Assembly (NCBI GenBank): GCA_023055425.1
Contig: JALGPY010000008.1
Location: 7,326,501-7,390,500 of the forward strand
Direction of reading: 5' to 3'
From: Linanthus parryae
Taxonomy: Eukaryota > Streptophyta > Magnoliopsida > Ericales > Polemoniaceae
Length of the DNA stretch: 64,000 bases
Made by a program: the position numbers and the translations under genes. Positions 2,103 to 61,331 of this stretch are shown here, one piece after another (positions within the stretch are counted from its first letter, which is position 1; each line of letters begins with the position of its first letter). The notes beneath the pieces are model-generated. The model did no database searches and had not been told where the DNA came from. It saw nothing but the letters and a program-made list of their open reading frames with translations.

Positions 2103-4156
<2,054 letters not shown>

Positions 4157-39220: not shown

Positions 39221-39389
39221 TTTCCTTGTTTGTTTTCTTTATTTTACCATTCCTCAAAAAAAAAAAAAAAAAAAAAATATATAGTTTACTCGAGGGGTCA
39301 AAGTGAAATGCAGACGACACTTCAAGGGCAAGGAGTAATTTGATAAAAGTAATCGACGACGACGACTCGGGGAATTTTGGTAAAAAACC

Positions 39390-39456
39390 AATATGCACCT
39401 TTGTGGGTGCATATTAACCATAAGTTCAAAAAGTTGGTGGGAAGTACCCACCAACT
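39390..39456. other. Two adjacent perfect hairpins at the MULE left end
   Basis: Hairpin 1 pairs AATATGCACC (39390-39399) with GGTGCATATT (39406-39415). Hairpin 2 pairs AGTTGGTGGG (39432-39441) with CCCACCAACT (39447-39456) around a 5-base loop. Both have 10-bp perfect stems and lie within 90 bp of the terminus, a plausible transposase-recognition region by position. Confidence 0.75.
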
Positions 39457-40153
39457 AATAATCATAAGTTAACTTTTGGTTTGTTATAGTTAGTGGGTCC
39501 CATTTGATTTTTTTAACATTTTCTCCATGGTGGGTCTCTCTTTGTTTTTTTAAGGTTTTCCATGTGGCAAGAGGGGGTCCTACCCAAATATTTATTTGCT
39601 GAATTTTTTCTCCAAATTTGCATGCATGCACTACTCTCTCTCTCTCTCTCTCTCTTCATTCAACAACAACAACAACAATAACATCTCCCTCACCCTAGAA
39701 AATTAAATTCACTCAACAACCTTGTTCAACTAGAAAATTAAATTCAACTACCTAAGATGTAAAACCTTAAAATGTACCTCAGTTCATCAATTTTGACACC
39801 CAAAAGTTGTTGTTTCTCTCTCTAGTCTATTCCAAAACCTCCATTGTTGGGTTTCAAAACAAAAACAAAGTTCGTTCGTTTGAAGACTTCGAATCCGTCG
39901 GAAACAAGAGTAAGTTTATCAACCTTAGTATCCCTTCGTTTTATCTTTTCATTTCAAAAGTAGTATTTTGAAAAAATTCGTATATTCATTTTTTAACATT
40001 TTCGGAGATGTTCTGAAAATAGTATGAGATTCACCTTGAGGATATTGCGAAGGTCTTTGGAAGCCCTACAAAAAGCCCCAATACGATCGATTTAAGTTCC
40101 ATTTTGAGCTTGGGCATATAGAGGGCGTCCGGAACCAAGTCTAATTTTCACCC
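39457..40153 (+). promoter_or_regulatory. Putative transposase promoter, 5' UTR exon and splice donor
   Basis: Between the left hairpins and the Athila insertion lie a CT microsatellite (39632-39655), a CAA repeat (39663-39677) and CT-rich leader-like sequence, ending at a strong donor GTAAGT (39910-39915). An acceptor TTATCTGCAG ends at 51650, three bases before the transposase ATG. I infer a 5' UTR intron that would contain palindrome array A and now the Athila element too. No transcript evidence is available here. Confidence 0.45.
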
Positions 40154-42731
40154 TGATGCGCAATTTAGCGTGCTATTCGCAAGTATACGAATCAAGTAAT
40201 ATAGAGAGTATTTTCGACTCGGATTATCGATCCCACAGGGACTTTGCAGGTTTTTCTAGTAATCAGTTTTAACGAACAGAGTGTAAAAAGGAGGAATATT
40301 TTGAGAGTTTGTAACTACGAACTAAGTACTGAACGTAAATAACTGAAACGTAAATATTTTTGTGGAAGTTTTCTGAATAATCTTAAGTTTGTAAAACTAG
40401 GGTTTGAGATACTAGGTCCCGGGATCCCCTAGGGTTCTTCAGATTTTCGTTCTATGTTTGACATGAAAACACACAGCAGTCTCGTTATCCGTGCCACGTA
40501 CCAATTGTGCAGTATCTTTTCTTTTCCTGCACGTTATCACAATCCTGCAGACTGTCGGATTCCTGTTAAGCTGCCTAAGTCTGCAGTCTCGTTCTAAGGC
40601 TGCTAGGGTTTCTAACCTGTCCTGATGGCCCGGGTCAGATTCTCTAACAGTTGGTCTCAACGATTTCAGGCTAGTCCTAACTCCCCTTCGCTATTCGGCC
40701 CATCGGGGTAAGGTGCTAAATTCTGTCTTCTCTTCCTAACCCTAACCGGACGTTTTCACCTACCGGCTCGGGTCTGTAGCGATTCTGGTTAGCTACTCCG
40801 ATCATGCATAAACAGTAAAATTCAAAGACAGAATAACGAATAAAGCTGCTGATATTAAGATAGTACGATCATGAATTCATAGTCAAAACGTAGAACTAAT
40901 CTCTGAAAACGAAACCCTAGGTTCACCGAGAACCTAGGTAAAAGTTTAGCTACTGAAATTCATAACGTAAAATAGCACAGTTTTTGAATAAGAGAAAAGA
41001 AAAGCAAACAGGTCTTCGAATCTGGAATTGCGCTTTCGTGCTCTCCCGGGATGCTCGGTCTTCTCCTTCGGTTGTGCTGTCTTGTGTTGATGTTCTGGAC
41101 GAGTCTTTATATAGTGCTGGAGACGTTTCTGGAAACTGCAGAAATTACGAAACTGCCACTGGGCCGAAACCGCCTCGGGAAACGGGTCGTCTGCCACCGC
41201 CTCGGGAAACGGGCCAACTGCGCAAGATAGCTGCGTAGCTACCTGCGTAGTTGGCTGCGTAGGTAGCTACGTAGCTACCTCCGTAGTTAGGAGCGTAGCT
41301 AACTGCGTAGTTGCTGCGTAGCTAACTGCGTAGCTAGCTGCGTAGCTAACTGCGTAGGTAGCTGCGTAGCTACCTGCGTAGTTAGCAGCGTAGCTAACTG
41401 CGTAGGTAGCTGCGTAGCTACCTGCGTAGTTAGGAGCGTAGCTAACTGCGTAGTTGCTGCGTAGCTACCTGCGTAGCTAGCTGCGTAGCTAACTGCGTAG
41501 TTAGCTGCGTAGCTACCTGCGTAGTTAGCAGCGTAGCTAACTGCGTAGGTAGCTGTGTAGCTACCTGCGTAGTTAGCAGCGTAGCTAACTGCGTAGGTAG
41601 CTGCGTAGCTACCTGCGTAGTTAGCAGCGTAGCTAACTCCGTAGGTAGCTGCCTCCTCAGTTTGCGCGCCAAACTCCTCGGGATGCCTCGGGATGACTGC
41701 TGATCTTCTCGGAGTGTGTTTCGTCCGTCTCGGGATGCGTGACAAACTGCTCGGGATGCCTCGGGATGCGTGACAGGCTCCTCGGGCTGCGTGCCAATCT
41801 TCCTCGGGAAACGTGCCAATCTTCTCGACTTGCATGCTCGGCTTCTCAGCCTCCTTGGATCCTTCACCCGCATGCCTGCTTCATTTCCGGCTCCGTGAAT
41901 TCCCGTCTTGCGTTTTGACCCGAAACTTGTCAAAATTACCAAAATACCCCTGGGTCAAAACCGCTCCAAATTCTGTCCAATTCTGACTCTGGCCATAGGT
42001 AAACTGCTGACTGAATTTGGAAGACAAAATCTGAACTTGACTCCGGAAACCCGGGCCCGGTGCCAAAATGACCAAAATACCCCTAGGCCAAAACTGTCCC
42101 GGAAATCGTCACGAACATGAAATAGTTGCTCCTGACTCCGGACACCGGAAACCGAGACTCCTTACTCGGGCGTGGCCTGACTGGGACCCACACTTGACGG
42201 GAGTCGGTTTTTTCGGCCGGACTCCGTTTCAGCATTATAACCTGTTTTCGGAAAGCCCTTGACGTCTCCGTTCTTTTGCCCCTGGTTTCACTTCAAAATT
42301 CCAAGTAAAGCTCAAGATATTGTCAACCGAGCGCATCTCGGTGATTCTCGGTTTTGGCGTTTTCAGCTTCCTCGGTCGGTTTTCTCTGCTCGTTTTTCCT
42401 CTAGTCTTTCCGTTTTCCATTCCGCTCTCCCTTGTACCAGTCTCGGTCAAATCCTGCTCCGAGCGTTTTCTGCACGTTTCTCGAAGCGAACCTGGTTCTG
42501 TCTCAACACGCATCCCAATGCACTTTCCGAACCTATTCCTGTAAAAACATGACAAAACCCGCGATCATATCCAATAAAAGTACGAAACATGCAGAAATTC
42601 ACGAAGAGCAAATAAACGTCTCGTTCCTAAAACCGAGGCTTTCCGAGGGTGAATTCTGGCTAAAACGCGGTTTTCCATCACACATACACATCTTTTCAGG
42701 CTATAAAATAACCCCTATTTGGGCGTTATCA
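40154..42731 (-). repeat. Athila-like 3' LTR
   Basis: Starts TGATGCGCAATTTAGCG and ends GGGCGTTATCA. Contains the 12-bp-unit array at 41226-41656. Small ORFs inside recur in the other LTR and are not genes. Confidence 0.96.
41226..41656. repeat. 12-bp unit array with 48-bp higher-order period in the LTR
   Basis: About 36 units of the form GCGTAGNTANCN. Four variants tend to follow one another (GCGTAGCTACCT, GCGTAGTTAGCA, GCGTAGCTAACT, GCGTAGGTAGCT), making a 48-bp higher-order repeat. Many units contain the palindromes TAGCTA or TACGTA. The minus strand is open throughout and would encode Tyr-Ala-rich or Thr-Gln-rich repeats; I regard that as a by-product of a period divisible by three. The identical array recurs in the other LTR at 49403-49833. 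Confidence 0.9.
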
Positions 42732-42750
42732 AATACCCCCACACTAAACT
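42732..42750 (-). other. Athila-like polypurine tract
   Basis: On the minus strand TTTAGTGTGGGGGTATT immediately precedes the 3' LTR. Confidence 0.85.
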
Positions 42751-43398
42751 TTGCTCGTCCCGAGCAGACTCCAGCAATATACTACCAATGCATACTATCC
42801 CGAATCAATCCAGAGCGGTGTACCTGCAATTATTTTTTTTTAAAAAACAGTATTAATATTATAAAAACAGTTTATATTTTTTTTTTTGGTGAGACTGGGC
42901 AATCTCTTCAACTCAAACTGAACATCATCAAGTTCTCATATTCCCCTAAATTTCAGAAACTGCGGTGATCGGAAGAACTCGCGGCCAGCCTAGGTTAGGA
43001 ACAAGCACGAACACCACTTACTTCCGCTTTTGCACGCAAACCGAGCGTATCCCTAACGCACACCTTCCGTGCTTTTACTCCGGGTGTGATGTAAATCTGC
43101 CGGCTTTGGGACGGTAGGATAAGCCATTTAGAAGCGATGTCCTAAACGTCACAGCACACTCACACATACCCCAATCTCACACTCCCTCACCAAGATGACA
43201 GAAACTGACCCAAATCACCTAAGATTCTAGACACTCAATTTCCCCAGTCCCGGTGTAACTGCCGTTCTCGCGGCCACAACTGTGAACGAATGTGAAACTG
43301 TGATAAAAATAGCCGGCCTGGCGTTTTGAAATAAAATCAATCAAGCACCCTGAATTTTCTGCCTTTGATACTTTTTTTTTCTTCGTTTTTTTTCTTCA

Positions 43399-43429
<31 letters not shown>

Positions 43430-45520
43430 GTTTTTTTTTTTTTTGTTTTTTTTTAACGAGGCTACACAATAAACAATATAAACCAGGCCAACTCTATGAT
43501 AAACCAAAAAACGTGGGGTGGCTGAAAAATACTGAAATAATCTGTAATGACCACCCCCACACTAATTCTGAACCATGTAGTCAATCTGTAAAATATTCGC
43601 GCTTTTCCAACCGATCCTCCTCACTCCAAGGATGTCTAAATAGCACAGCGCGTCCTCCAGTAACCCTGTCAACCCAAAGTCCCCCATGTCGTGCGGAAAA
43701 TTTACGCACTACGGCTCTCCTCCTGTGCTCACGGTGTAATGTCGTGAGTCACCGCCACACCGAAGTGTGCTGCCGTCTCTATCTCACCCTTACACACCCT
43801 CAAATATAAAAATAAAGCTCATCCACTATCAAATATGACAATTCTGCTCTACCCCAGAAAATCCCCCTCAACTCAACTCCCTCGTGCCATGACGCGTAGG
43901 AAAGGTAAAAATACTAACAATGATGCGAGTATCAAAAAACGGCTTCCTAGGTCAAACGGTTACGAAGAAAAGGATTAATGGATCAACGGGGCTCACTAGT
44001 GGACCTAAGGCGCGAGACAGGACGTGAGGTCCCCTATGGCCTATCACTCCACCAAATGATGTGGTGACCGTGATGGCGGGTTGACGACTACCTGGTGACG
44101 GTGGTCTGGCAGCTAGTCGGATACATTGCTCGGGAGACAGCTTCTTGCGTTTTCTGAAGTGTATTGGCTCTATTAACTCCCCTAGACAGATTCTCGCAGC
44201 TCTTCCTCACCTAAGTTCGTCCACTTCGGGAAATTTTATATCATTAAGCTCTCTCCAGTTTTAAGCTAAATCCTTCACCCAGTCTCAAAATTTTCAATTT
44301 TTTTTTTTTAATATTTTTTTTTTTTTTATTTTTTTAATAAAACGTAATGCAGTTACAACGCCACCACCCCCACACTGGATGGTGCCATGCCCTCATGGTA
44401 CTAATCATTAGGCATACAATCTGGATTGGATGAGCTGGCTTGCCTCATCGAATGGGAACAACTGGTAGCATATGCAGAAAAATAAAGCGAGAGACAGAAA
44501 TTGAACCTGTGCACCCGGAGTCAGTTCTTACAGGTGCGGAATTTCTCGCAGATTCCGGTGGAGCAGGACCGTTGACCGGTCGCCAGAAAATTTCTCGACG
44601 GAAGCTGTCAACCTTTCGGGCTCTATGTGCGCTCTTCAAACGTGCAATCCTCGAGCACCATTGTGTTTGACAATGTGCTCCCATATGGTCGAGTATACTT
44701 CCGTACACCGGGGTCGATTGCTCGGTTCTGCAGAAAAACTGTTCCTGAAAAATCCCCAACTCGTACGAGTCCCTGTGACGGTCGAGTGTGCCAGAACACA
44801 CCGGGGTCGATTCTTCAAGATTTTGAAAATCTGCCTTTCCTTCTACGAAATTTTCTGAATTCGCTTCAAACTCCACGGATCTGTGTATGGAGGTAGAGAG
44901 AGAAAAATGGGGCAAAAACGTGCTGCTGTCCGAAAAAAAATATTTTTTTTCTTCTTCTGCCTGTGTATATACGCAGTACTGCGTATATACGCAAACATGG
45001 AGCAATTTGAAAAGTCTTTTTTTTTTTTTTTTTTTTTTTTGAAAAAAATTCCATATTTTCACTGCTGGCTGCGTATATACGCAACCCTGCGTTGTACGCA
45101 GTCAGCAACAAAAATAAATTTTTTTTTCAATTTTTTTTTTTTTTTTTTTTCAAAATCCTGAAATTTTCGCTGCTGACTGCGTATATACGCAGGTCTGCGT
45201 ATATACGCAAGCAGCAGGTAAAAAAAAATGTTTTTTTTTTTTTCAAAATTCTGAAATTTTACTGCAGGCTGCGTATATACGCAGCAGCCTGCGTATAAAC
45301 ATAATTTTTTTCTCTCTACTCCTTTTTGTTCTCGTTTTCTGCTCTGCTGTATCTGCACATGCTCAATTCAAAGTCAATACCCACTCATCTTACCTCTCTC
45401 AAAATTCAAAACTGAAAATAAAACTTGAAATAATTTAAACTAACTTACTACGTTGGGTTGCCTCCCAACCAGCGCTTGTAATTTACGGTCGACGGCCCGA
45501 CCCAGTTACCTCATGTTTGC
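42751..45520 (-). other. Athila-like 3' internal non-coding region
   Basis: About 2.8 kb between the gag-protease stop and the polypurine tract, where Athila elements may carry an env-like frame. I see no sustained frame. It is T-rich (long T tracts at 43371-43455 and 44290-44335 on plus) and contains the palindrome cluster at 44958-45300. Confidence 0.7.
44958..45300. repeat. Cluster of TGCGTATATACGCA palindromes between poly-T tracts
   Basis: The 14-bp perfect palindrome TGCGTATATACGCA occurs five times (near 44983, 45070, 45177, 45194 and 45270). Close variants sit near 44964, 45085 and 45287. Pairs of palindromes alternate with 15- to 30-base T-rich blocks. Confidence 0.88.
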
Positions 45521-48193
45521 TCAAGGGACGTCAAAATCGCCAGGCCTTACGTCCGCTTCTGGGCCGAGATATGGCTTGACCCGGTTTCCGCTCACTCTGC
45601 AAGTTGTACTGTCATGCTGATTCTCCAATTCAACTGCCTCCCATGAAAGTACCACTTTGATGATAAACGGTCCTGACCACTGAGATCTCAATTTTCCCGG
45701 GAAAAACTGCTTCCGAGAATCGCAGAGACGTAATTTCTGACCTACTTGAAACTGCTTTGGCTGTGCTGAAGTTTGATGGCTCGGGAGCGGTCTAACCTCT
45801 CGGGTCGGTGGCTCCTTGAGTGACGGGACCAGGGCCAATTTCTGTCCACCTTTTTCGTCCAGCTGTAAAGTGGTCCGGTTTTCGGCTTGCATGGCCTGCT
45901 CCTCCTGGAATCTCTCCTCGTTCTCTCTGTCCACTCTATCAATCTCTTCCCATAGCTCATCCATCTCTTCATTTTCCCAGCCTTCTTCGACTACCTCCAC
46001 TACGAAGATGTCTTCATGCTCGTAATAATTCGGTAGTTGCAGATTTTTGAAAACGTTGAACTTCACCTTGTCTTCATTGATCTGCATGGTCAGTTCTCCG
46101 CTCTTGCAGTTTATCATGGCTTCTCCGGTAGCCAAAAACGGTCTGCCCAGAATGAGTGGCACGTCTCCTGCCTCCATGTCTAGAATTACAAAATCTGCCG
46201 GAAAAATCAATTCTCCGACTTTCACCAGAATATCTTCAATAACTCCGTAAGCCTGCTTCACGGATCTGTCCGCCATCTGCAGGTTGATTCTGGTGGGCCT
46301 GAGTTCACCGATTTTTAAAGTTTTGAAAATCGACAAAGGCATCAGATTGATACTGGCCCCTAGGTCACACAGAGCCTTTCCTGTGTAAGCATTACCTAGG
46401 GTCACCGGGATGACAAAACTGCCAGGGTCCTTCCTCTTCCTCGGTAGCCCATTCTTCACACAGTTGCTCACTTCTGCCGTCAGATTTATTGTCTCGAAAT
46501 CGCTCATACGTTTCCGTCCATACAAAATATCTTTGAGGAACTTGGCATAAGTGGGCATCTTTGCCAACGCCTCCGCAAAGGATATGTTGATCTTCAGCTG
46601 TTTGAAAATCTCGATAAATCTGGCGTAGTCCTTGCTATCATCCCTCTTTCGTGTCTTCAAAGGATACGACACCTCCTTGGAGACAGGTACCGTTTCTGCT
46701 TCCTTCTCCTTCTGCACTACATCCTGCTCAACCGAGCCCTTCGGCTGGGGGCGGTCGGCTGAGCTGTTATCCTTGCCAAGTACTTCACGCTCGATTTCCT
46801 TTGATTTTTCTGCACGTGCATGGCTAGGATACGGCGGATCCTGTAGTGCTAATCCACTCCGAGTGGTGATGGCATTGACCTGAGCACGTGGATTATTCAC
46901 TGTATTCGAGGGCAAGTTTCCTGGCTCTCTCTCCGTTAGCTGCTGTGCTAACTGTCCAACTTGTACCTCCAAAGCGCGCAGTGACGTTTTGGTCATCTGC
47001 ACGTCGGCTGTCAGGGCGTCCATGTGCTCGAACCGGGACTCCATGGTCTGGAACATGGACTTGATCTCCTTCATCTGAGCGTCGTACTGCTGTGCAGATG
47101 GGCCCGACTGAGCCTGCTGCGTCGATGCAGCCTGCTGGGCTGGTGGCCTGTGCTGGAACCCCGGTGCATAAACCGCTGCGTTCGGGTTTCCGTACCGGAA
47201 CCCGGGATGGTCTCTCGTACTCGGTCTGTACCGGCTCGGATCCCACTGCTGCTGTACGTAATTGGAATCTTCGTTTCCGAGCCCCTCGATGGCTGTGTCC
47301 AAATCTGTTTTTCCTACTGCATCAGTTGAGTAAACTTTCTTGACCAAATCTTGAACGATCTTGGCCAGATTGTCTATCCGGTCGTCTTCCACTGGCTCGG
47401 CTCGGGCCGTGATCCTGCGATCGTCAAACAGGCGAGTGTCCTGTTTGGCTAATTGCTTCATCAGCTCATAGGCACCGTCCTTGTCCACATGGTACAGGAA
47501 GTTTCCTCCGACTTCTCTATCAATCCTGTCAGCACTCTCCCTGTCTAAGGCATGGTAGAATACCTGCAGGATCTTCGGGTCTCCAAAACCGTGGTTTGGA
47601 CACTTTTTCATCAATCTCATCAATCTGTCCCATGCGTCTACCACCGTCTCCCCTGTCTTCTGCTTGAATGACAGAATCTCGCTTTGTAATTGAATGACCC
47701 GGGAGGCGGGGTAAAATTTGGCCAGAAAATCGGTGACACACCCCTTCCATGTTGTGATGGACCTGGGTGGACGGGATTCGAGCCAGTCGTTGGCTACTCC
47801 GTACAGGCAGTATGGAAAGAGTATTAGCATGAGCGCCTCGGCTCCAACTCCCTTATACCGGACTTTGTTGCAATAGTCCTCAAACTTCCCGATGAAGTCA
47901 TTTGGATCTTCGTCAGCTTTGCCATGGAATGGGCAGAGGGTCTGAACAGTCTGGATGGTGGATGGTTTTATGTCGAAGTGTTCTGCGGTGATCTCGGGCA
48001 CCACAATAGCTCGTTCATGCCCCCCCGTGGGGACTTCGAAATTCTCCACCAACGCCTTCCCAGACCGGTTGTACGTCCTCTGGTTGCTCCGGGCAGCCAG
48101 ACCCGCTGTGATCAGATCTTCGATGTACCGAGCCATCTCGGCTGGAGTACGTGTCTCGGGCAGTTCTGGCGTTTTCTCGGTATTGTCGCCCAT
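45521..48193 (-). CDS. Retrotransposon gag-protease polyprotein with integrase tail
   Basis: 890 residues, uninterrupted. A Retrotrans_gag domain lies at about 75-270 (FHGKADEDPNDFIGKFEDYC, FYPASRVIQLQSEI), then a Gln-rich linker and coiled-coil-like part (about 365-415). An aspartic protease lies at about 600-720 (ALCDLGASINLMPLSIF; then VPLILGRPFLATGEAMI). The last ~75 residues (KQFQVGQKLRLCDS, FFPGKLRSQWSGPFII, NRVKPYLGP) match the C-terminal tail that follows the integrase in Athila-type polyproteins. Reverse transcriptase, RNase H and the integrase core have been deleted cleanly in frame. I see no CCHC knuckle. The protein could build particles and process gag; packaging of RNA and replication would need enzymes from elsewhere. 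Confidence 0.93.
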   Translation of the reverse strand: MGDNTEKTPELPETRTPAEMARYIEDLITAGLAARSNQRTYNRSGKALVENFEVPTGGHERAIVVPEITAEHFDIKPSTIQTVQTLCPFHGKADEDPNDFIGKFEDYCNKVRYKGVGAEALMLILFPYCLYGVANDWLESRPPRSITTWKGCVTDFLAKFYPASRVIQLQSEILSFKQKTGETVVDAWDRLMRLMKKCPNHGFGDPKILQVFYHALDRESADRIDREVGGNFLYHVDKDGAYELMKQLAKQDTRLFDDRRITARAEPVEDDRIDNLAKIVQDLVKKVYSTDAVGKTDLDTAIEGLGNEDSNYVQQQWDPSRYRPSTRDHPGFRYGNPNAAVYAPGFQHRPPAQQAASTQQAQSGPSAQQYDAQMKEIKSMFQTMESRFEHMDALTADVQMTKTSLRALEVQVGQLAQQLTEREPGNLPSNTVNNPRAQVNAITTRSGLALQDPPYPSHARAEKSKEIEREVLGKDNSSADRPQPKGSVEQDVVQKEKEAETVPVSKEVSYPLKTRKRDDSKDYARFIEIFKQLKINISFAEALAKMPTYAKFLKDILYGRKRMSDFETINLTAEVSNCVKNGLPRKRKDPGSFVIPVTLGNAYTGKALCDLGASINLMPLSIFKTLKIGELRPTRINLQMADRSVKQAYGVIEDILVKVGELIFPADFVILDMEAGDVPLILGRPFLATGEAMINCKSGELTMQINEDKVKFNVFKNLQLPNYYEHEDIFVVEVVEEGWENEEMDELWEEIDRVDRENEERFQEEQAMQAENRTTLQLDEKGGQKLALVPSLKEPPTREVRPLPSHQTSAQPKQFQVGQKLRLCDSRKQFFPGKLRSQWSGPFIIKVVLSWEAVELENQHDSTTCRVSGNRVKPYLGPEADVRPGDFDVP

Positions 48194-48306
48194 CCTGAAA
48201 AAGTAGAGATCTCAAGAGCAGTGAGATAACAGAAAAAATAAAATAAAATAAAATAAAAATAAAAACTCTGAAAATTAATTCGGACTACTAAATAAACCCT
48301 AAAAAG

Positions 48307-48324
48307 TCCCCGGCAACGGCGCCA
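48307..48324 (-). other. Athila-like primer-binding site (tRNA-Asp)
   Basis: The plus strand tccccggcaacggcgcca equals the 3' end of plant tRNA-Asp(GTC) including CCA; the minus strand is its complement, six bases inside the 5' LTR. Confidence 0.88.
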
Positions 48325-48330
48325 AAAACT

Positions 48331-50908
48331 TGATGCGCAATTTAGCGTGCTATTCGCAAGTATACGAATCAAGTAATATAGAGAGTATTTTCGACTCGGA
48401 TTATCGATCCCACAGGGACTTTGCAGGTTTTTCTAGTAATCAGTTTTAACGAACAGAGTGTAAAAAGGAGGAATATTTTGAGAGTTTGTAACTACGAACT
48501 AAGTACTGAACGTAAATAACTGAAACGTAAATATTTTTGTGGAAGTTTTCTGAATAATCTTAAGTTTGTAAAACTAGGGTTTGAGATACTAGGTCCCGGG
48601 ATCCCCTAGGGTTCTTCAGATTTTCGTTCTATGTTTGACATGAAAACACACAGCAGTCTCGTTATCCGTGCCACGTACCAATTGTGCAGTATCTTTTCTT
48701 TTCCTGCACGTTATCACAATCCTGCAGACTGTCGGATTCCTGTTAAGCTGCCTAAGTCTGCAGTCTCGTTCTAAGGCTGCTAGGGTTTCTAACCTGTCCT
48801 GATGGCCCGGGTCAGATTCTCTAACAGTTGGTCTCAACGATTTCAGGCTAGTCCTAACTCCCCTTCGCTATTCGGCCCATCGGGGTAAGGTGCTAAATTC
48901 TGTCTTCTCTTCCTAACCCTAACCGGACGTTTTCACCTACCGGCTCGGGTCTGTAGCGATTCTGGTTAGCTACTCCGATCATGCATAAACAGTAAAATTC
49001 AAAGACAGAATAACGAATAAAGCTGCTGATATTAAGATAGTACGATCATGAATTCATAGTCAAAACGTAGAACTAATCTCTGAAAACGAAACCCTAGGTT
49101 CACCGAGAACCTAGGTAAAAGTTTAGCTACTGAAATTCATAACGTAAAATAGCACAGTTTTTGAATAAGAGAGAAGAAAAGCAAACAGGTCTTCGAATCT
49201 GGAATTGCGCTTTCGTGCTCTCCCGGGATGCTCGGTCTTCTCCTTCGGTTGTGCTGTCTTGTGTTGATGTTCTGGACGAGTCTTTATATAGTGCTGGAGA
49301 CGTTTCTGGAAACTGCAGAAATTACGAAACTGCCACTGGGCCGAAACCGCCTCGGGAAACGGGTCGTCTGCCACCGCCTCGGGAAACGGGCCAACTGCGC
49401 AAGATAGCTGCGTAGCTACCTGCGTAGTTGGCTGCGTAGGTAGCTACGTAGCTACCTCCGTAGTTAGGAGCGTAGCTAACTGCGTAGTTGCTGCGTAGCT
49501 AACTGCGTAGCTAGCTGCGTAGCTAACTGCGTAGGTAGCTGCGTAGCTACCTGCGTAGTTAGCAGCGTAGCTAACTGCGTAGGTAGCTGCGTAGCTACCT
49601 GCGTAGTTAGGAGCGTAGCTAACTGCGTAGTTGCTGCGTAGCTACCTGCGTAGCTAGCTGCGTAGCTAACTGCGTAGTTAGCTGCGTAGCTACCTGCGTA
49701 GTTAGCAGCGTAGCTAACTGCGTAGGTAGCTGTGTAGCTACCTGCGTAGTTAGCAGCGTAGCTAACTGCGTAGGTAGCTGCGTAGCTACCTGCGTAGTTA
49801 GCAGCGTAGCTAACTCCGTAGGTAGCTGCCTCCTCAGTTTGCGCGCCAAACTCCTCGGGATGCCTCGGGATGACTGCTGATCTTCTCGGAGTGTGTTTCG
49901 TCCGTCTCGGGATGCGTGACAAACTGCTCGGGATGCCTCGGGATGCGTGACAGGCTCCTCGGGCTGCGTGCCAATCTTCCTCGGGAAACGTGCCAATCTT
50001 CTCGACTTGCATGCTCGGCTTCTCAGCCTCCTTGGATCCTTCACCCGCATGCCTGCTTCATTTCCGGCTCCGTGAATTCCCGTCTTGCGTTTTGACCCGA
50101 AACTTGTCAAAATTACCAAAATACCCCTGGGTCAAAACCGCTCCAAATTCTGTCCAATTCTGACTCTGGCCATAGGTAAACTGCTGACTGAATTTGGAAG
50201 ACAAAATCTGAACTTGACTCCGGAAACCCGGGCCCGGTGCCAAAATGACCAAAATACCCCTAGGCCAAAACTGTCCCGGAAATCGTCACGAACATGAAAT
50301 AGTTGCTCCTGACTCCGGACACCGGAAACCGAGACTCCTTACTCGGGCGTGGCCTGACTGGGACCCACACTTGACGGGAGTCGGTTTTTTCGGCCGGACT
50401 CCGTTTCAGCATTATAACCTGTTTTCGGAAAGCCCTTGACGTCTCCGTTCTTTTGCCCCTGGTTTCACTTCAAAATTCCAAGTAAAGCTCAAGATATTGT
50501 CAACCGAGCGCATCTCGGTGATTCTCGGTTTTGGCGTTTTCAGCTTCCTCGGTCGGTTTTCTCTGCTCGTTTTTCCTCTAGTCTTTCCGTTTTCCATTCC
50601 GCTCTCCCTTGTACCAGTCTCGGTCAAATCCTGCTCCGAGCGTTTTCTGCACGTTTCTCGAAGCGAACCTGGTTCTGTCTCAACACGCATCCCAATGCAC
50701 TTTCCGAACCTATTCCTGTAAAAACATGACAAAACCCGCGATCATATCCAATAAAAGTACGAAACATGCAGAAATTCACGAAGAGCAAATAAACGTCTCG
50801 TTCCTAAAACCGAGGCTTTCCGAGGGTGAATTCTGGCTAAAACGCGGTTTTCCATCACACATACACATCTTTTCAGGCTATAAAATAACCCCTATTTGGG
50901 CGTTATCA
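48331..50908 (-). repeat. Athila-like 5' LTR
   Basis: 2578 bp, essentially identical to 40154-42731, including the 12-bp array (here 49403-49833). Confidence 0.96.
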
Positions 50909-50910
50909 CA

Positions 50911-51443: not shown

Positions 51444-51445
51444 GC

Positions 51446-51650: not shown

Positions 51651-51653
51651 GAA

Positions 51654-54350
51654 ATGGGGAAAATCACTGTGCAACTCATGTGGAATGGAGTTTGGGAGCT
51701 CGTCAATGGAAAATTTTTCTACGCACGCGGGGTGAACTACAAATCGAAGACGATGGTGCTGAAACAGGAGGAAATTCCCACACTCCATAGTCTGAAGGAA
51801 CGAGTTGCTTCGAGAATGGGATTGGACAAGCACCTAGCTCCATTCATAGAGTTAAGTTACATGCGACAAGGGATGGAGCAGTATGAGCCATCAGAAATCA
51901 CCGACGAAGACGATGTTTTGTTAATATTTGAGACATATGAACCAAAGGAGATCGTTCCCATGTTTGCCAAGTACGACAATGACGACTCGGTTGCAGCTGG
52001 GGGACAGTATTTGCAGAAGATGAATCCTCGCAGGGGAAATTCGGAGCTTCGTGCGTTACTTACTGATGATAGTCAGGAACATGAAGGCCCAACCTGGGAG
52101 GCCGGTTTTAACGAAACAGCGGTCTTGGTGGCGAACAACACATTTCAGGATGCAGCAGCGTTGGAAGGACCGCTTGACACGAATGTCGGGGTTTGGGAAC
52201 ATGAATGCCCAACCTGGGAGGCCGGTTTTAACGAAACAGCGGTCTTGGTGGCGAACAACACATGTCAGGATGCAACAGCATTGGAAAGATTGTTTGACAC
52301 TAATGTCGGTGGTCCTAGTTACGAGGGTGGAAGTTTGTCGGAGAATCCCGACTTGAACGAAGATCCGAACGCTGACCCGCACGGGCCATCAAGTGGAGAT
52401 GACACAACGGACGACGATGTACCGGTTAACAGGGGTCCTTGGGCCACAGGTTTACAGCATCATCCCACACTTGCGATTGAAGCCGACGCCGTTGCCAGTA
52501 ACAGCAGGCCCGATGGATCTACGTTAAAGCTTGATGATTTGTTTGAATCAGCAAAGGAAATCAAGAATATCCTACGGGGTCCTGCAACTCAACAAGGGTG
52601 GCAATGGACAAGTGTAAAGACAGAGAGCACAAGGGTCGTTCTCAAATGTCGCGATCCTCATTGTCAGTGGTACATGGCTGCTTATAAACGGAAACAAGAG
52701 AGATTTTACACGGTTAAGCGATACGAAAACATCCACACTTGTTCCGCGATCACCACAAATTTCAAGCATGCGAACGTGAATGTCGATGACATCGCCTATG
52801 GAATGATTGATCGATATCGGAACGGGCAGCCTCGCCCTAGCAGACATGACATCGTCGCGTACGTGCAACTTGCCTTCAAGTGCTCCGTCACTAAATGGAT
52901 ATGCTACCAGTCTAGGCAGAGGGTGTTCCAGATCATTCACGGTAGCCGAGAAGAACAATACCAACAACTCCCTGCATTCTTCTACATGTTGGAGTCTTTG
53001 AACCCTGGGTCCTACACGAAGATAGAGCGCGACGAAGAAAGCAGATTCAAGTACTGTTTCATGGGTATAAAAGCTCAGCTGGATGGAATCAACTTCATGC
53101 GACCACTAGTGGTCATCGATGCCGGTCACATGAAGAACGAGCCATTGCAGGTCGTAGTTGCGACAATGGTCGATGGACGGAGGCAGTGTTATCCAATTGC
53201 ATGGGGCATAATTGACACCGAGTGCAATGAGGCCTGGGGGTGGTTCCTTCAGCAGCTGAGGCTTTTCGTCCCGAACGACAAGTATCTCACATTTCTTTCC
53301 GACAGGCATCAGGCCATTAAACACGCAGTCGCGACAGAGTACCCAAATGCACAACATGTGCACTGCTGGTGGCACATCAAATCGAACTTGATAAAGCTGT
53401 ATGGCCCCGGAAAGTGGGTGAATCTCTTCTGGAATGCTGCGGAGGCCGACACTATAGATAAATGTCGCAGTTTTCTTCACACATTAGCAGTGGAGCACCC
53501 TGCGAAACGTAATTTCCCAAATAATGAGAGTTTGTCAATCGCAGAATACCTGATGGAAAAATGTCCTCCCGAGAAATGGAGTCGGGCGTTCGCGGTCAAC
53601 ACTAGATTTGACATGTTCTCTTCCAATCACGCAGAATCTATGAACTCAATGTTAAAGGATGCGAGATATCATTGCGTGCTCTCGTACTGTTCGTTTGCGC
53701 TCAGACAAATGTCTCAGTGGTTTTACGATAGGCGGACCGAAACTGGCACTTGGAACACAAAGTTGACCCCAGAGCGCGAGAAAATCATGCAGAAGAATCT
53801 TAACGACGCAAAAATGCTACACGTCACACAGCTGGATGCACTTGAATTCCGTGTAACAGGTAGGAACCATGGCACTGCCAAAGTGTACTTCTCGGAGGGG
53901 TACTGGGTTTGCGATTGCGGCAAGTTCCAGTTGGACTGGCAACCGTGTGTCCACGCTTGTGCGTGCGCTCCAATACTTAGAAAACAAAATCCTCATATGG
54001 GGATGGAAGAAGGGTTGCCTCCTTCAGACGGGCTTGTCATGTACAATTTCACGAGCAACACCTACAGTGCGGACTTCTACAAGAGAGCTTACGCCGGGAA
54101 AATTGAGGTTATTCCTGATCGTATAGACTGGGATACACGTCGGATCCCACCGGAGATAAGCAACATTGTCACTCTTCCACCAGTGAAGGTAGTGAAACGT
54201 GGAGCACCACAGACAACCAGGATACCGTCTGAAGGAGAAAAACGTAGGTATGGTACTAGGAAGCACAAGTGCTCTCGATGTGATAAGGAAGGCCATAACG
54301 TGAAGACATGCCCCACGAGGGAGGATGACCGGCTAATTACACATGATTGA
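51654..54350 (+). CDS. MuDR-type (mudrA) MULE transposase
   Basis: 898 residues in one frame. A PB1-like N-terminal domain (about 1-95) is followed by an acidic linker with a 40-residue tandem duplication (GPTWEAGFNETAVLVANN, about 142-221). The MuDR N-terminal zinc-type domain lies at about 297-364 (KCRDPHCQWYMAAY, IHTCS). The MULE DDE transposase domain has catalytic acids in VVIDAGHMKN (~488), LSDRHQAIKHAV (~548) and NHAESMNSML (~663), with the usual HCWWHIK motif between. A SWIM zinc finger (CDCGKFQLDWQPCVHAC, ~753-770) and a C-terminal CCHC knuckle (CSRCDKEGHNVKTC, ~873-886) complete it. It cuts and rejoins DNA at the element ends. No inactivating change is visible. The start at 51654 sits just after a probable acceptor. 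Confidence 0.95.
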   Translation: MGKITVQLMWNGVWELVNGKFFYARGVNYKSKTMVLKQEEIPTLHSLKERVASRMGLDKHLAPFIELSYMRQGMEQYEPSEITDEDDVLLIFETYEPKEIVPMFAKYDNDDSVAAGGQYLQKMNPRRGNSELRALLTDDSQEHEGPTWEAGFNETAVLVANNTFQDAAALEGPLDTNVGVWEHECPTWEAGFNETAVLVANNTCQDATALERLFDTNVGGPSYEGGSLSENPDLNEDPNADPHGPSSGDDTTDDDVPVNRGPWATGLQHHPTLAIEADAVASNSRPDGSTLKLDDLFESAKEIKNILRGPATQQGWQWTSVKTESTRVVLKCRDPHCQWYMAAYKRKQERFYTVKRYENIHTCSAITTNFKHANVNVDDIAYGMIDRYRNGQPRPSRHDIVAYVQLAFKCSVTKWICYQSRQRVFQIIHGSREEQYQQLPAFFYMLESLNPGSYTKIERDEESRFKYCFMGIKAQLDGINFMRPLVVIDAGHMKNEPLQVVVATMVDGRRQCYPIAWGIIDTECNEAWGWFLQQLRLFVPNDKYLTFLSDRHQAIKHAVATEYPNAQHVHCWWHIKSNLIKLYGPGKWVNLFWNAAEADTIDKCRSFLHTLAVEHPAKRNFPNNESLSIAEYLMEKCPPEKWSRAFAVNTRFDMFSSNHAESMNSMLKDARYHCVLSYCSFALRQMSQWFYDRRTETGTWNTKLTPEREKIMQKNLNDAKMLHVTQLDALEFRVTGRNHGTAKVYFSEGYWVCDCGKFQLDWQPCVHACACAPILRKQNPHMGMEEGLPPSDGLVMYNFTSNTYSADFYKRAYAGKIEVIPDRIDWDTRRIPPEISNIVTLPPVKVVKRGAPQTTRIPSEGEKRRYGTRKHKCSRCDKEGHNVKTCPTREDDRLITHD

Positions 54351-54589: not shown

Positions 54590-55080
54590 ATAGGGGCGTA
54601 TATCCTTATTCGGGCGCCCTAGTAAGGACACAGGGCGCCCGAATTAGGGTATAGAGGCGCCCCCCAGCTGGGAAGCAAGCCCAGGGGCGCATACAGGGGT
54701 GCCTAGGCGGTTCCTAGAAGCCCCTGTATGCGCCCCTGGGCTTCTAGGTGAAAAATTTTTCACCCAGAAGCCCAGGGGCGCATACAGGGGTGCCTAGGCA
54801 GTTCCTAGAAGCCCCTGTATGCGCCCCTGGGCTTCTAGGTGAAAAATTTTCCACCCAGAAGCCCAGGGGCGCATACAGGGGTGCCTAGGCAGTTCCTAGA
54901 AGCCCCTGTATGCGCCCCTGGGCTTCTAGGTGAAAAATTTTCCACCCAGAAGCCCAGGGGCGCATACAGGGGTGCCTAGGCAGTTCCTAGAAGCCCCTGT
55001 ATGCGCCCCTGGGCTTCTAGGTGAAAAATTTTCCACCCAGAAGCCCAGGGGAGCATACAGGGGTGCCTAGGCAGTTCCTA
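54590..55080. repeat. MULE palindrome array B, between the convergent 3' ends
   Basis: Begins with a hairpin whose 13-base arms ATTCGGGCGCCCT / AGGGCGCCCGAAT lie near 54608-54643. Then comes the 42-base inverted copy of 51446-51487 (54638-54679), then four and a half units of the same ~90-bp palindrome as array A, with loops in the opposite orientation (TGCCTAGGCAGTTCCTAGAA). Units 2-4 are almost identical, so homogenisation is recent. The last unit stops in mid-loop at 55080. It lies 240 bp after the transposase stop and 180 bp after the peptidase stop, so both transcripts read toward it. Confidence 0.92.
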
Positions 55081-55259: not shown

Positions 55260-58200
55260 CTACACGTAAGGATACCAAATTGGTTCTCCTGGCGGGTCTA
55301 TTCTATTGCCATATGTGTCTACAGTGATGAATCTAAACATAGTCTTCCATATTGCCACCGCATATTCTTTCCTTATAAGCTTCTGGTCCCCTTGGTATGA
55401 TTGAAACTCTCCTCTAATTGTGGGATCCTCGATGACCTTCTCGATCATGCGCAACATATACAACGCACTGCAACTTGAGAGATCACATCGGTGTCTCGGC
55501 TCCTTATTCTTCGGCAATTTGAATACCTTAAGGACCTTCGGGCAAAACTTGGCCCGGTTAGCAACTTGCTCTTCCCCAAACTCCTGCAGCAATCTCGGAA
55601 AATTTGTGCATAGTCGAGCCAAGTCCCAATTATTACGCCCCGAAAACTTCATTGGATCGTACACCTTCACACAAATTCGTTCCTTCTCGAACACGTCTAT
55701 GTAAACGAGAATCCAATGTTGAAATCCCTTCACTGGCCGCTTAGTCCTCCAAGGCATGAACCACCTCCTCGCAAGCGATCCCTTGGAACCCCTCATAGGC
55801 TTGTTACCTCTAAAGTATTCAGAAGTCTTCTTCTTTAGGGTTTCAAAATCATCATCTACTTGAAAAGCTTTGAACCAATCCTCATCCGTAATAACCGTGT
55901 CCGTCCTTGGAGCGCCAAACTTTTTTGAGTAATTAAGCCTCTGGGTATACGTGCATTCGTCTACATGTTCCCACCCGAAAAGTTTTCCTACTCCCATTAT
56001 GTAACGGAAGAATGGCCGAGATCTTTGCTTTATCCCACAATCTAAATATGGGAAAAGTGTATGTTCGTCATTAAGCCAGATGTCAAAACACCGATGCAAC
56101 TTGGGGTCTTGCTTACGCATGTCGGCCACGGAGAATCCAGGCTTCATATGGTTCGCAAAGATATCGATAGACGGGTTATATAATTTGGCGTACGGCGTCT
56201 TCTCCCAAGGGATCCTTGCACGGTTTCGAAGCAGATATCGACCGCCTTCCATTGGTTGCAGGTAGTCCAATTCATGCACGGGCACCATTTCAGTGTACAT
56301 AGAGAGAGGGGTCCAGCACTCTTCTTTTTCCTTGTGCTCGCCTACTTCAAAAAATGGATTATGCCCGTCCGCAGTGAAAGGGGTTAAAACATGTAGCCTA
56401 TCCCAGCGAGACTGCTCTTCTGGTTCATCCGTCACCCCTTCATCCAACTCTTCATCCGAGATCTCATCTTGGGCCAACTCTGTTTCCTCGTTTATCCCAT
56501 CGATGTCGCCGTGAAACTCTATTTCCTCGTTTCCTGATCCATCCTGAAGAATTAAGAAAATTTGTACAGTCGAAAATATAACATCACGAAATTAGAGAAA
56601 GCAATGATTCACCGCCAATAGTACCTGTGACATGGAGGGCCCTACTTCCTTGATGCAGGGAACATCGTGATAAACACTTAACAACCTTTCTTGAACTTTA
56701 GCAGTTTTTTTGTATGTGTGTACCTCGTTGGTGACGGCATCCAAGCACGAGTTTAACTCGTGAGTCCCAATAAAGTGTGCCACCCAGATTCTAAGGTACC
56801 ACCCGTTCACTTCGTATTTCACAGAGAAGTTCGGAACGAGTGTTCTGAGGTGCTTCATGAAGAAACACACATAGAATCCACAGTCATGCCTACAACAAAA
56901 ATAATTCACAAATAGATAAGAAAATAATGTAAAAAAATGAATTGCAACTAAAATTAAGTGTAGTTCACAAACCCGTTCTTCTGGTGCGGAATCTCGGACC
57001 ACACATATTTTGGTTTCCATGTCATTATGTCCTCCTTGTAAGCGACTTTATAAATGGCGCAAAGGCTATCGTGAATTAACTTCACTTTATGTTCCACCCG
57101 CCTCTCAATATACTCATCGGATGAGTCAAATACGAAAACACCCTTGTGTTCTAAGCTCACCACAAGCAGATAGTAGTGATTATCCCGGATGCCTATTGGG
57201 AGTGCAATCTGAAAAGCAACATAAAATACGAAGTATTAGAATATGATTACAATACGAACTAAAATATGAAGTTATTAGAATATGATTACCATGGAGAGCT
57301 CAGATATAGAAGCAGGAAGATATTTTTCGTCTAGGTAAAATGGTAACTCTTGATCATATACTCCGAAAATATTTATTGGTGCATAACAAATTTTCCGATC
57401 ATGTTTCCTCTCTTCAGCCGTCAGAATGGCCGTCATGCACATCATCGTCTGCAAGCATTTACAACTTAGAAAATTGTCGACAAATTACAAAAAAATGCAA
57501 GTTAAATAAAAACTTACCGAGTCTGTCATCCACTCATCGCGTGAATACTCGTACGCGTGTGAGCACGTTATCTTGTCGCCACCACTGATGTTAACCAATA
57601 CCTTTCTGTAAACAAAAATGAAGTTAAATTACACAAATGATACGATACTAATAAGAGCTAAATAAAAGGAAAATTGTAAAATATTGATCTCTTACTGGCT
57701 AAAAATAGAAAGCCGTTTGGCCTTTTCTTTTTCGGTGGCGGTAGCAGGCTCGACCATGCTCTTAGTGACCCGAGTGAAGTAGGAATGCCACCAGCACTGG
57801 TCGATGCTTGGTTCATCAGGAAATGAAACACTGATCGGTGCAACTGGTAGATCGGGACATTCACTAACAGGTTGTGCCTCGGCATTAGGCAATTCTGCGC
57901 GTTGTTCCTCGACATGTGAGACTAATGGTGAAGTCTGACCAACGGGTTGTGCCCCTTCTTCCTCGACAGTTTGGACCAATGGTGAATCGCGAGCATCGTT
58001 AGAATCTTCTGTGCCCATCTGTCTAGCACCACTGGTTTTGTCTGTCAACCCATCTAGCCTCTCCGTCAACCCATCTAGCCTCGCCGTCACATCATCCAGC
58101 TTCCTCATACACGCATCGATATTCACCTTCTGCTCATTCTTCATTCTCTGAAAAGCCATCTCCATGTTTGTCATTCGGGATTTCATCGTTGTCATACCCA

Positions 58201-61005
58201 AATCCATTCTTGTCATTTGGGACTTCATCGAAGTCAGCATACTGATGATAAGATCCATCCCATCTACCATTTCCTCAGTCCGGGCTCTCTTTCTTGGTTG
58301 TGCCTCCTCAGTTTCCTCGGACACTTCATCAGTCTCCCTTTCGCGATCCTGACGCTTCTTCGACCTTTGCTCGGCACCTACTTCCCCACTGGGTGAGGAC
58401 AGGGGTGCGTTAATCATTCGATCAAAATCCTCCCTAACGCGCTCTTCAGTCATGACATCATGTGGAGCTGCAGCAGGTGGGCTTGGCAATGGCGTTGGAG
58501 CTGCAGCAGGTGGGCTTGGCAATGGCGTTGGAGCTGCAGCAGGTTGCTGACTCTTTTTCTGAGTTTGCCTTTTTCCCTTGGTTGTCGCCGGCCTTGGCAC
58601 ATCGGCCTCCCCTTCACTTGGCGGTGGCGTTCCACTTGTTCGCTTACTCTTTTTCTGAGTCTGCTTTTTTCCCTGCTTTTCACCTGTTTTCTTACTCGCA
58701 CCCAAATTCCTCGTCGTCTTAGTCCCCGACATCTGAAACGGTTGCATCTGAATAGCTGCACCGGAGTAGACAACGCAACGGCCACCCAACCTACTCGTCA
58801 GGTCCGGAAACAATGGAAGATACGGATTAGCTTCCATATGAGCCAAGTACTGAAGCCAGTACCAACTCTGCTCCTCCGCAGGAGTGGGGTGAAGTGTCGG
58901 GCGAACATATGTGATTGACGCCACAAGCCTGGTCACTGATTCATCATCAGCCCTGACCTGTAGAGGATAGTACGCCGCCACTCTGGGAAGTACCCCTTCG
59001 TCCCTGCTAGCCAAGAGGGGTACCATCTGTGGGATTGCTTCGTAGGCCCAAGCCTGCGCGGAGAGACAATCGCAGTAAGCATATAATATTTTAGATTTAA
59101 CTAACAATAAAAAATGCATAACTAACACAATTACCGCAGCAACGAAAGGGAAGGCAGTGAGCGAGTAAGTTGGTTTGGTAAAGTCGCAATGTTTCATCCC
59201 TTCGAGTAATTTTTCAAAGCATTCCATACCCCAATCGTAGGCGTTACAGAACTCGAAGTCATTGCACTTCTGTATCACTGCGGCGGGCAACACATCATGG
59301 CCGCCGGTGTTGTGCCATAACCTACCGATTATTGCAGCCACTAATAACTTCACAAATCTTTCCAACGTAGCCGAGTCCATTTGCTTATCAGGATCTTCGG
59401 AGTACGGGTGTTCGCTATCGATGCCTTCCAGATAATTTTCCATTGTAGTTCCATTCACTTTCCCGTACACACTCTTGAAAGTGGGGCCAAACACGGTCTG
59501 AATAAGGGCATAATCTGCCATCCTCTCGTCCAGCTGCTCATCGTTATGAGACTTAAAGACGTTAAGTCCACTGCAGAGAACAAACTCTTGTAGGGAGAAT
59601 CGCAGCGGGAAGGTCCCAAAGTTGAACCATATTTCACGGTCATGAGGGTTAGTGTTAATCCGACGCTGGATAAGTAAGTCGAGGAGCGTCTTCGAGAACA
59701 CTTGGTCAAATCGATAGGTCAAAAGCCATGCCAAGTTAGGGAGCCGCTGTCGCACTAAAGTCCTAACGTCTTCCCGTCCGGTCAGCCTTGTAAACACTAT
59801 CCATGACCTCTTCCGCGAACGAAACGTCAACTTATACCTCCTTAATTCGGCTCGATTAGCGGCAGCAGGTAAACGACCAAGTTGGTCCAAGGAGATCAAA
59901 TCCTGTCAAATAAACCAATAAGTAGTCAATTATCAATAAGTATTAAGAAAATTAGTCATAACTTTATGAACTTATCATTTACGGGCACATACTCAAAAAA
60001 CTAATCACAATTAATGACAATTTTCTCAAGTTCCCAGCACGGGCGCATACATGCTGAAAACTTGGAAAAAAAAACAATGAGTAAGCCAAGGGGGCATACA
60101 GGGGCGTCCTGTAAGCCCCCTTGGCTTACTCAGTCAAAAAATATTCTCAATATCCCAGTAGGGCGCATACAGCATGTTCTGGATGCCCCCAACAATTGAG
60201 GTATGCGCCCTAGGCTGTGAAACAAGGAAAAAATTTGACCCCGAAGCCCTGGGGCGCATACAAGGGCGTCTGGTATCTGCCCAGGCGCCCCAGTATGCGC
60301 CCCAGGGCTTCTGGGGTCAAAATTTTGACCCAGAAGCCCTGGGGCGCATACAAGGGCGCCTGGGCAGATACCAGGCGCCCTTGTATGCGCCCCAGGGCTT
60401 CTGGGTCAAAATTTTGACCCCAGAAGCCCTGGGGCGCATACTGGGGCGCCTAGGCAGATACCAGACGCCCCTGTATGCGCCCCTGGGCAACTGGGTCAAA
60501 TATTTTCCTTGTTTCACATCTAGGGCGCATACAACATCTTCTGTATGCCCCAACACACAAAAGTATGCGCCCCAAGGCGCCCTTCATGATTTTCAGTCAA
60601 AATTTATGAAATTGTATACGCCCTATGTGATTAATCAGTCAAAATTGATGTTCTTGTACGCCCAGTGGTTCATCAACATGATTTTTACATGAACGTAGTC
60701 GTGAAATTTACAGAACAGTTTGATTTCATGAACCAATTTTGCACCAAAAAAGCAACACAATATCAATTTTATCTAACCCTAGAACATGAGTTTGATGAAT
60801 AAAACTTGAAGAGGTGAAAGAAACTCACCTCTTGGGCCACATTGGCCGGTGCAGAGGGAGGAGGCGGTGCCGGAAGAGCCGCCGCCGCAGCCACTACACC
60901 CGTCGGCGCCGGAGAAGAGGACGGGGAAGACACCCCTTGGCCGCCGGAGTTGAGATCTCCAAGCACTTGGTTCACCGTGTGTGTGGGAGAGGGTTGGGAG
61001 TCCAT
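55260..61005 (-). CDS. DUF1985 / Ulp1-type cysteine peptidase carried by the MULE, eight exons
   Basis: Exons: 61005-60829, 59902-59135, 59053-57696, 57605-57518, 57448-57290, 57208-56973, 56889-56625, 56543-55260. All junctions are GT..AG and phases agree, giving 4335 nt and 1444 residues. Exon 1 encodes a Pro/Ala/Ser-rich start. Exons 2-3 hold a DUF1985 domain (WFNFGTFPLRFSLQEFVLCS), a Lys- and Pro-rich linker with repeats, and a Met-rich coiled coil (KSQMTRMDLGMTTMKSRMTN). Exons 6-7 form a C48 peptidase core: His in RDNHYYLLVV, Asp in FVFDSSDE, Cys in HDCGFYVCFFMKHL. The last exon holds a second C48-like unit (QHWILVYIDVF, VKVYDP, DLSSCSALYML). Family members cleave SUMO-type isopeptides; substrate here unknown. 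Intron 1 contains palindrome array C. The 81-bp intron 59134-59054 is free of stops and a multiple of three. Convergent with the transposase. Confidence 0.88.
60041..60575. repeat. MULE palindrome array C, inside intron 1 of the peptidase gene
   Basis: Three central units (about 60235-60320, 60317-60417, 60410-60500) plus diverged palindromes on both sides. The central unit has perfect 47-base arms (60317-60363 and 60371-60417) around a 7-base loop. The arm core GGGGCGCATACAAGGGCG is a variant of that in arrays A and B. Spacers are the palindrome TCAAAATTTTGA. The whole array is an inverted repeat at larger scale: GTGAAACAAGGAAAA near 60217 is mirrored by TTTTCCTTGTTTCAC near 60503. Confidence 0.92.
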
Positions 61006-61331
61006 GAGAGCGAGAGAGAGAGAGGAGTGTTGGTGGTCGCCGGAGAGTATGGAGGTGGAGGAAGAAAGTGAAGAGAGTGTTGATGAAGAAGAAAGTGAAG
61101 AGAAACCGTTGGGTTTCTTTGTTTTAATCGGGAGAGAAGAGAGAGAGGGGAGAGAGGTGAGAGTAAAAGTAACTTTTTGAATTTTTATTGTTTTTTAATA
61201 TGAACTGATTTTATTAGTCTAATTAGGTTATTACTTTTTAATTATTTTCTCAAATAAAGGTCAAAATAGAAGACAAAAAGTCTATGGTTGGTTTGCACAT
61301 AAATGGTTTTTTTCCCAATTTCCGACGACTC

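Follow-up and report, generated by a model that had tools for sequence, protein, structure and literature searches.

The genome of Linanthus parryae holds, within a stretch of 64,000 nucleotides (positions 7,326,501 to 7,390,500 of contig JALGPY010000008.1, assembly GCA_023055425.1; hereafter the window), a Mutator-like element (MULE) in which three arrays of long palindromes, A, B and C, accompany two convergent genes. The first of these genes codes for a transposase and the second, gene 2, for a protein with matches to the DUF1985 and Peptidase_C48 domains. We describe the element and its relatives in the same genome, and consider what the palindromes may be for.

The element and its two genes

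The element is a non-TIR MULE, that is, one of the class without terminal inverted repeats (TIRs). It displays a 9-bp target-site duplication, its ends fall exactly at 39369 and 61322, and its terminal sequences, compared by eye, show a short imperfect likeness only, so that TIRs are absent or degenerate. A preliminary description of this DNA, made from the sequence by itself, had delimited a MULE over the same interval. Its ends are upheld, but the interval includes a long terminal repeat (LTR) retrotransposon nested immediately to the left of array A (Table 1); after removal of the latter, the MULE comes to 11,194 bp.

The transposase is of the MULE type, as witnessed by its profile scores (PF10551, 60 bits for a cut-off of 27.6; PF03108, 29.5 for a cut-off of 25). 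A 120-bp tandem duplication is present within its coding sequence (CDS), at 52076-52309, with the frame kept, and patterns derived from this protein, when compared with viral contigs, gave no match. Lying antisense to this mudrA-type gene, gene 2 is apparently intact: consensus splice sites, picked by eye, produce an uninterrupted protein of 1444 aa. Scanned for domains in three pieces, this protein displays a Peptidase_C48 domain (43.2 bits, cut-off 20.7), with H, D, Q and C positions that align to Ulp1 and SENP2 (E about 0.001), a marginal DUF1985 domain (PF09331, 35.3 bits, cut-off 35.1), and short tandem repeats in its middle part. The C-terminal 427 aa (55260-56543) had no Pfam match at E<=10, and no solved structure resembled them with a meaningful E-value; an HW...D...C pattern in this region might, as an impression only, recall a second, decayed peptidase-like domain. 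Structures predicted from single sequences for two exons of gene 2, with a mean predicted local distance difference test (pLDDT) score of 37 and 36, were not used. With frames of at least 120 aa considered, two genes in all were recognised in the MULE.

Table 1. Features of the element and of its immediate borders (coordinates of the window)
Feature	Position	Strand	Remarks
Left target-site duplication	39360..39368		CGACGACTC
Whole MULE	39369..61322		interrupted by an LTR retrotransposon; placed by target-site duplication and end positions
Nested LTR retrotransposon	40154..50908		outside the system; LTRs 40154-42731 and 48331-50908
Array A	50909..51443		6 palindromic units, 12 motif copies; predicted intron in the 5' untranslated region (5'UTR) of the transposase gene
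Right flank of array A	51444..51570		GGGCATACA/GGCGCCC words, as in the older A-type array of other copies
Transposase CDS (MULE, DBD_Tnp_Mut)	51654..54350	+	no internal stops
Motif left of array B	54594..54603	+	1 mismatch
Array B	54677..55080		4.4 palindromic units between the convergent 3' ends; inverted copy of A
Gene 2 (DUF1985 + Peptidase_C48)	55260..61005	-	8 predicted exons, 1444 aa
Gene 2 exons	61005-60829, 59902-59135, 59053-57696, 57605-57518, 57448-57290, 57208-56973, 56889-56625, 56543-55260	-	predicted
Gene 2 intron 1	59903..60828	-	predicted; array C and 8 motif copies outside C (<=1 mismatch)
Separate palindrome	60075..60137		other arms, around a 1-mismatch motif
Array C	60229..60506		3 palindromic units, 6 motif copies
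Right target-site duplication	61323..61331		CGACGACTC

Palindromic arrays and their common word

The three arrays are made of near-perfect palindromes, about 90 bp long and built around the word GGGCGYATAC, and the preliminary account of inverted repeats of this size with a common core is borne out by tandem-repeat detection, by comparison of the inverted arms and by folding. Tandem Repeats Finder (TRF) gives for A, B and C periods of 91, 91 and 90 bp, copy numbers of 5.9, 4.4 and 3.1, and 89, 99 and 88% matches. Watson-Crick pairs occupy 356 of the 403 arm cells when 13 units are compared, and single units, one per array, reach folding energies of -77 to -85 kcal/mol (z from -12 to -15 against shuffled sequences, 0 of 200 of which did as well). 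In the inverted alignment of A with B, 29 bp of array edge and 40 bp of flank are identical in opposite orientation, while 20 bp are found in A only; loops are flipped in one of the six A units and in one of the three C units.

With at most one mismatch, GGGCGYATAC occurs 37 times in the window (33 exact copies), where shuffled sequence yields a mean of 2.8 and a maximum of 7, and every one of these copies belongs to non-coding DNA of the MULE, in introns or in the gap between 3' ends. The placement of the arrays given earlier, ahead of the transposase, between the convergent 3' ends and in the first intron of the peptidase gene, stands, but ten motif copies lie outside the arrays, which hold the other 27. 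The 11-mer GGGGCGCATAC is found 24 times, 23 of them in the arrays and one beside C. When no motif is preset, GGGCGCATAC comes out first among the 10-mers of the 1350 bp of non-coding MULE DNA examined outside the arrays, with five occurrences there and none in 7032 bp of CDS. CpG dinucleotides are located inside the motif in 12 of 13 cases in A and 8 of 9 in B (20 of 22 together), and in 6 of 13 in C. The TpG+CpA ratio of the arrays, 0.98-1.14, is not clearly raised, and low CpG is for this reason no proof of methylation decay. As for spacing, the deduplicated distances between motif copies (49, 71, 40, 51, 51, 41, 50) peak at a period of 10.1 bp (score 0.90, P 0.003, period scanned); they score just 0.30 at 10.5 bp. 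The full set of 12 spacings gives 0.70 (P 0.003). Helical phasing is suggestive only.

The family in the genome: conservation and turnover

In the 1.51-Gb assembly GGGGCGCATAC has 1181 matches, against 57 for the reversed control word. The first 100 matches listed come from one contig, where they form 15 sites, all of which were fetched: 95 fall in 10 copies of the MULE family, of which three were covered from array A through B to C and seven in the surroundings of array C; the other five are isolated, with no MULE. On the matches listed, the palindromes are not, then, the unrelated satellite that had been considered as an alternative. The transposase itself has at least 52 matches in the genome (51 of 2700 candidates scored). 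Full-length transposases are free of stops in 24 of 32 cases at >=98% identity and in 1 of 11 at <=96%, and we can therefore recognise a subfamily that is young and largely open beside another that is older and mostly broken.

The predicted intron 1 of gene 2 holds 6-14 exact motifs in the 10 other copies and 12 in the window, and among 11 copies 86 of 102 neighbour spacings measure 39-42, 48-52 or 89-92 bp (two copies, L007 and L008, display the same series). In the intron flanks outside the array, identity to the window over the 10 copies reaches, on one side, 98.8% at motif positions against 89.2% around them; for the other side the figures are 94.7% and 90.0%. GGGCGYATAC is better conserved there than its surroundings. 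Array C shows 72-77% identity in several copies (L007-L009, L011 and L012 among others), next to gene-2 exons at >=91%. Three of five diverged copies have the motif at C (11, 13 and 11 times); the region is disrupted or missing in the other two. Three copies (L010 at 3068-6303, L011 and L016) have internal deletions or rearranged ends, yet keep the intron 1 array, with 12, 14 and 7 exact motifs, and non-autonomous members of the family may in this way retain the target. In another (L024, 278-1300; the C1:192328939 copy) intron 1 follows the sequence of the family for 54 bp and then departs from it, apparently where another insertion lies.

Arrays A and B suggest replacement. Nineteen copies, picked to span the range of identity and not at random (the window, 15 others and a further three), were compared at these places. 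In nine of them, A and B both hold GGGCGYATAC arrays. A further two have such an array at B and an older one at A, with eight motifs at B and one at A in C101:12698481, and six and none in C112:29423201. The remaining eight, with transposases 91-96% identical to that of the window, combine the older array at A with no such array at B. In the three copies where it was examined, the older A array likewise forms a long palindrome, with arms of 54, 65 and 56 bp (93, 86 and 98%). Its words are different ones, GGGCATACA and GGGCATCTAGGGGCGCC, and their remains adjoin array A in the window; the right flank of A, which also contains one GGGCGTATAC at 51516, would be a relic of this older type. Conserved flank DNA has a mean likeness of 98.8% in copies with both arrays and 96.0% in older copies. 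The copies endowed with GGGCGYATAC arrays appear to form a young, expanding subfamily, in which the C-type array would have spread to B and then taken the place of the older array at A. The idea that arrays keep their positions as their sequence drifts is thus mostly sustained, at A and C, and the presence of arrays beside every transcription unit, to which the preliminary description drew attention, is a property of the young subfamily, since B lacks one in 8 of 19 copies.

Other loci with DUF1985 genes

PF09331 matches the genome over its cut-off at least 150 times (150 of 686 candidates scored), and did so in none of 14 control genomes. Eight further loci, picked for different frame lengths, were fetched and submitted to a fixed rule, according to which a palindromic tandem array is a tandem array overlapping an inverted repeat. 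Such arrays were found at seven of the eight, or five of six when counted by family, as L054/L060 and L056/L061 are same-family pairs; none was found in ten control stretches (the five loci with isolated matches, four stretches of the left part of the window and its 2.7-kb right flank). In six loci (L054, L056-L060) the array lies 0.2-1.2 kb before the DUF1985 frame, and its word differs: CCGGATCGTCTG in L054 and L060, CGATCTTGC in L056, TCTACCATTTTGGTAGA in L057, CCTTGAAAC in L058 and GAGACGAG in L059. L054, L058 and L059 have about 1 kb of alignable DNA in common and arrays that are unlike. MULE domains were present in four of the eight stretches (L054, L056, L060, L061). L056 resembles the element of the window: its DUF1985 and C48 frames run convergently to a MULE transposase, and each of the two genes is preceded by an array; L054 associates its array before the DUF1985 frame with a non-palindromic 20-bp tandem array between convergent genes.

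The nested retrotransposon and the surroundings

The nested retrotransposon, flanked by a CACCC duplication, has LTRs of 2578 bp with a single mismatch, and is very young. It carries a gag/protease frame on the minus strand; a YxDD/FxDD motif, looked for over 40154-50908, was not found, and the element is probably gag-only and non-autonomous. It has palindromic tandem arrays of its own, at 41228-41652 and 49405-49829 (TAGCTGCGTAGC, one in each LTR) and at 44933-45297 (TGCGTATATACGCA, internal), with words unrelated to that of the MULE. The window as a whole is plant DNA, with chalcone/stilbene synthase, F-box/leucine-rich repeat (LRR), long interspersed nuclear element (LINE), Copia, Plant_tran and MULE sequences. 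Chalcone/stilbene synthase copies at 2470-3201 and 4345-5352, one frame having the N-terminal domain only, belong to segments (1919-3269 and 4156-5512) that are 91% identical. Three related repeats of about 1.4 kb follow (18477-19908, 23631-25192 and 27092-28524; identity 98% and 79-90%), the first two of them separated by a Copia frame (21065-23545), and a LINE (33624-39280), its frames broken by stops, terminates in a poly-A tail about 90 bp before the MULE.

A probable target for an anti-silencing protein

VANC systems are said to have diversified in eudicots through DUF1985, DUF287 and Ulp1, with a specificity reportedly set by motif sequence, density and helical periodicity. The TnpA sites of Spm/En, for their part, are short, repeated and found in both orientations.

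The published record on VANC, VANDAL elements and MULEs (Hosaka 2017, PMC5735166; PMC10398659; PMC6446971; PMC2528002; PMC6117577; PMC13317346) tells us that VANC proteins of Arabidopsis VANDALs carry DUF1985, have variable regions with short tandem repeats, bind a 9-bp motif in non-coding regions, and cause loss of methylation. The motifs form tandem repeats, subject to fast turnover, in the introns of VANC and VANB and ahead of VANA; according to a 2026 review, Ulp1-carrying VANC genes (Kaonashi, KIU) act likewise. Repeats at comparable places had thus been published, contrary to the earlier impression that nothing of the kind was known. VANDAL21/Hiun and VANDAL6 share with our element a MULE transposase, degenerate ends, a DUF1985 protein and fast-changing tandem repeats of a short motif, with C/T variants, in introns and before the transposase; they differ in the motif, YAGTATTAY or AGTTGTCC/AGTTGTAC there and GGGCGYATAC here, and the Linanthus element has inverted motif pairs within its palindromes, an Ulp1 domain and no third gene recognised. 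Kaonashi (KI-MULE/KIU) is likewise a non-TIR MULE with an Ulp1 domain antisense to mudrA, but is described with three genes where two are seen here and, in the available passages, with no mention of palindromic arrays. Spm/En also makes a protein, TnpA, with an anti-silencing effect; our element departs from it by its internal arrays, one of them central, and by the lack of CACTA ends.

Because the anatomy of the element, its conserved word, arrays whose sequence changes while their places stay fixed, and the presence of arrays beside other DUF1985 genes all fit, we consider it likely, with good confidence, that the palindromic arrays are the target arrays of an anti-silencing system of the VANC/Kaonashi type (DUF1985 + Ulp1). 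Binding platforms for the transposase or the peptidase had been proposed at the outset: the gene-2 product fits best as the binder, as gene 2 encodes DUF1985 and the positions of the arrays are those of VANC targets, and the transposase fits less well, B being central and the ends devoid of the motif. In the scenario that we infer, which comprises binding, demethylation, an order of spread and a role for the palindrome, the gene 2 protein would bind the arrays and the scattered GGGCGYATAC copies, about the start of each gene and in the gap between the 3' ends; this would lift DNA methylation and let the genes of the element stay on. Host silencing would drive fast turnover of the target, the array type of gene-2 intron 1 spreading to B before displacing the older palindromic array at A. 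The palindromic build of the target arrays appears to be new: the string 'palindrom' has no occurrence in PMC5735166, PMC10398659 and PMC13317346, and is part of a software name only in PMC6446971, and among the literature matches listed no title dealt with palindromic MULE arrays, the text of Sasaki et al. 2022 (EMBO J) lying outside this coverage.

Several observations weigh against assigning this role to the arrays. The DUF1985 match of gene 2 exceeds its cut-off by just 0.2 bits, one of the eight DUF1985 loci (L055) is without a palindromic tandem array, the unrelated nested retroelement is positive by the same rule, and VANC motifs are not described as palindromic in the published passages. 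Eight of 19 copies lack GGGCGYATAC arrays at A and B, with no palindromic array of note at B, and the word is therefore not strictly needed at these places. In MULE non-coding DNA outside the arrays GGCGCCC is commoner among 7-mers (nine copies), and forms of GGGCGCATAC with two mismatches occur at low density in the transposase CDS (3), the retroelement (2) and the window flanks (12). Array C has seven CpGs outside the motif, CpG is scarce elsewhere in the non-coding DNA of the MULE as well (0.47-0.65), and the CpG counts amount to few independent events because array units copy each other.

Other explanations

The arrays could, in the first place, be sources of hairpin RNA, feeding small RNAs that regulate or silence the element. 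The folding energies, unmatched in 200 shuffles, and the recurrence of long palindromes in other families are in keeping with this, as is the published finding that RNA-directed DNA methylation (RdDM) targets the same non-coding regions. Yet double-stranded RNA (dsRNA) requires no conserved 10-bp word, which it leaves unexplained, and of the ten motif copies outside the arrays the six that were folded were uneven: a strong hairpin at 60090, a modest one at 60041 and weak pairs at 60161/60201 and 60523/60563 (z -3.3). A dsRNA source, as initially proposed, is therefore unlikely to be what the arrays are for, and dsRNA could be a side effect.

We consider it quite improbable that the arrays are sites for the transposase, comparable to the subterminal TnpA sites of Spm. 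Once the retroelement is taken out, the distance to the left end is 780-1314 bp for A and that to the right end 816-1093 bp for C, and TnpA and MURA are reported to cause hypomethylation. Against this, B is central, the element ends are without the motif at <=1 mismatch, the type of array at A and B varies among copies whose transposases are 91-100% identical and, according to published work, specificity in VANDAL is carried by VANC.

A functionless amplification of readily recombining palindromes would account for the flipped loops, for B as an inverted copy of A, for the turnover of arrays and for the palindromic arrays of the nested retroelement; it is nevertheless very improbable in view of a word conserved above its surroundings in the intron flanks, and of arrays that recur beside DUF1985 genes and in 0 of 10 control stretches. 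Bidirectional terminators or insulators, suggested by B between convergent 3' ends, deserve hardly any credence, as predicted first introns contain A and C, and 8 of 19 copies are without such an array at B.

Perspective

If the arrays are indeed the targets of a DUF1985 protein, their symmetry calls for comment. We propose, tentatively and as something possible rather than probable, that palindromy is part of the address: in every DUF1985 MULE family of this genome the anti-silencing protein would recognise inverted motif pairs or their extruded form, conversion from arm to arm would keep the symmetry of arms and loops, and a new target could thus pass from site to site within an element and start a transposon burst. 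It would be useful to learn how transposon proteins direct demethylation towards their own copies. A single genome offers here several DUF1985 families with unlike palindromic arrays, together with one family caught at three stages of array replacement, and it provides concrete pairs of protein and motif and renders the arms race between targets and silencing directly testable.

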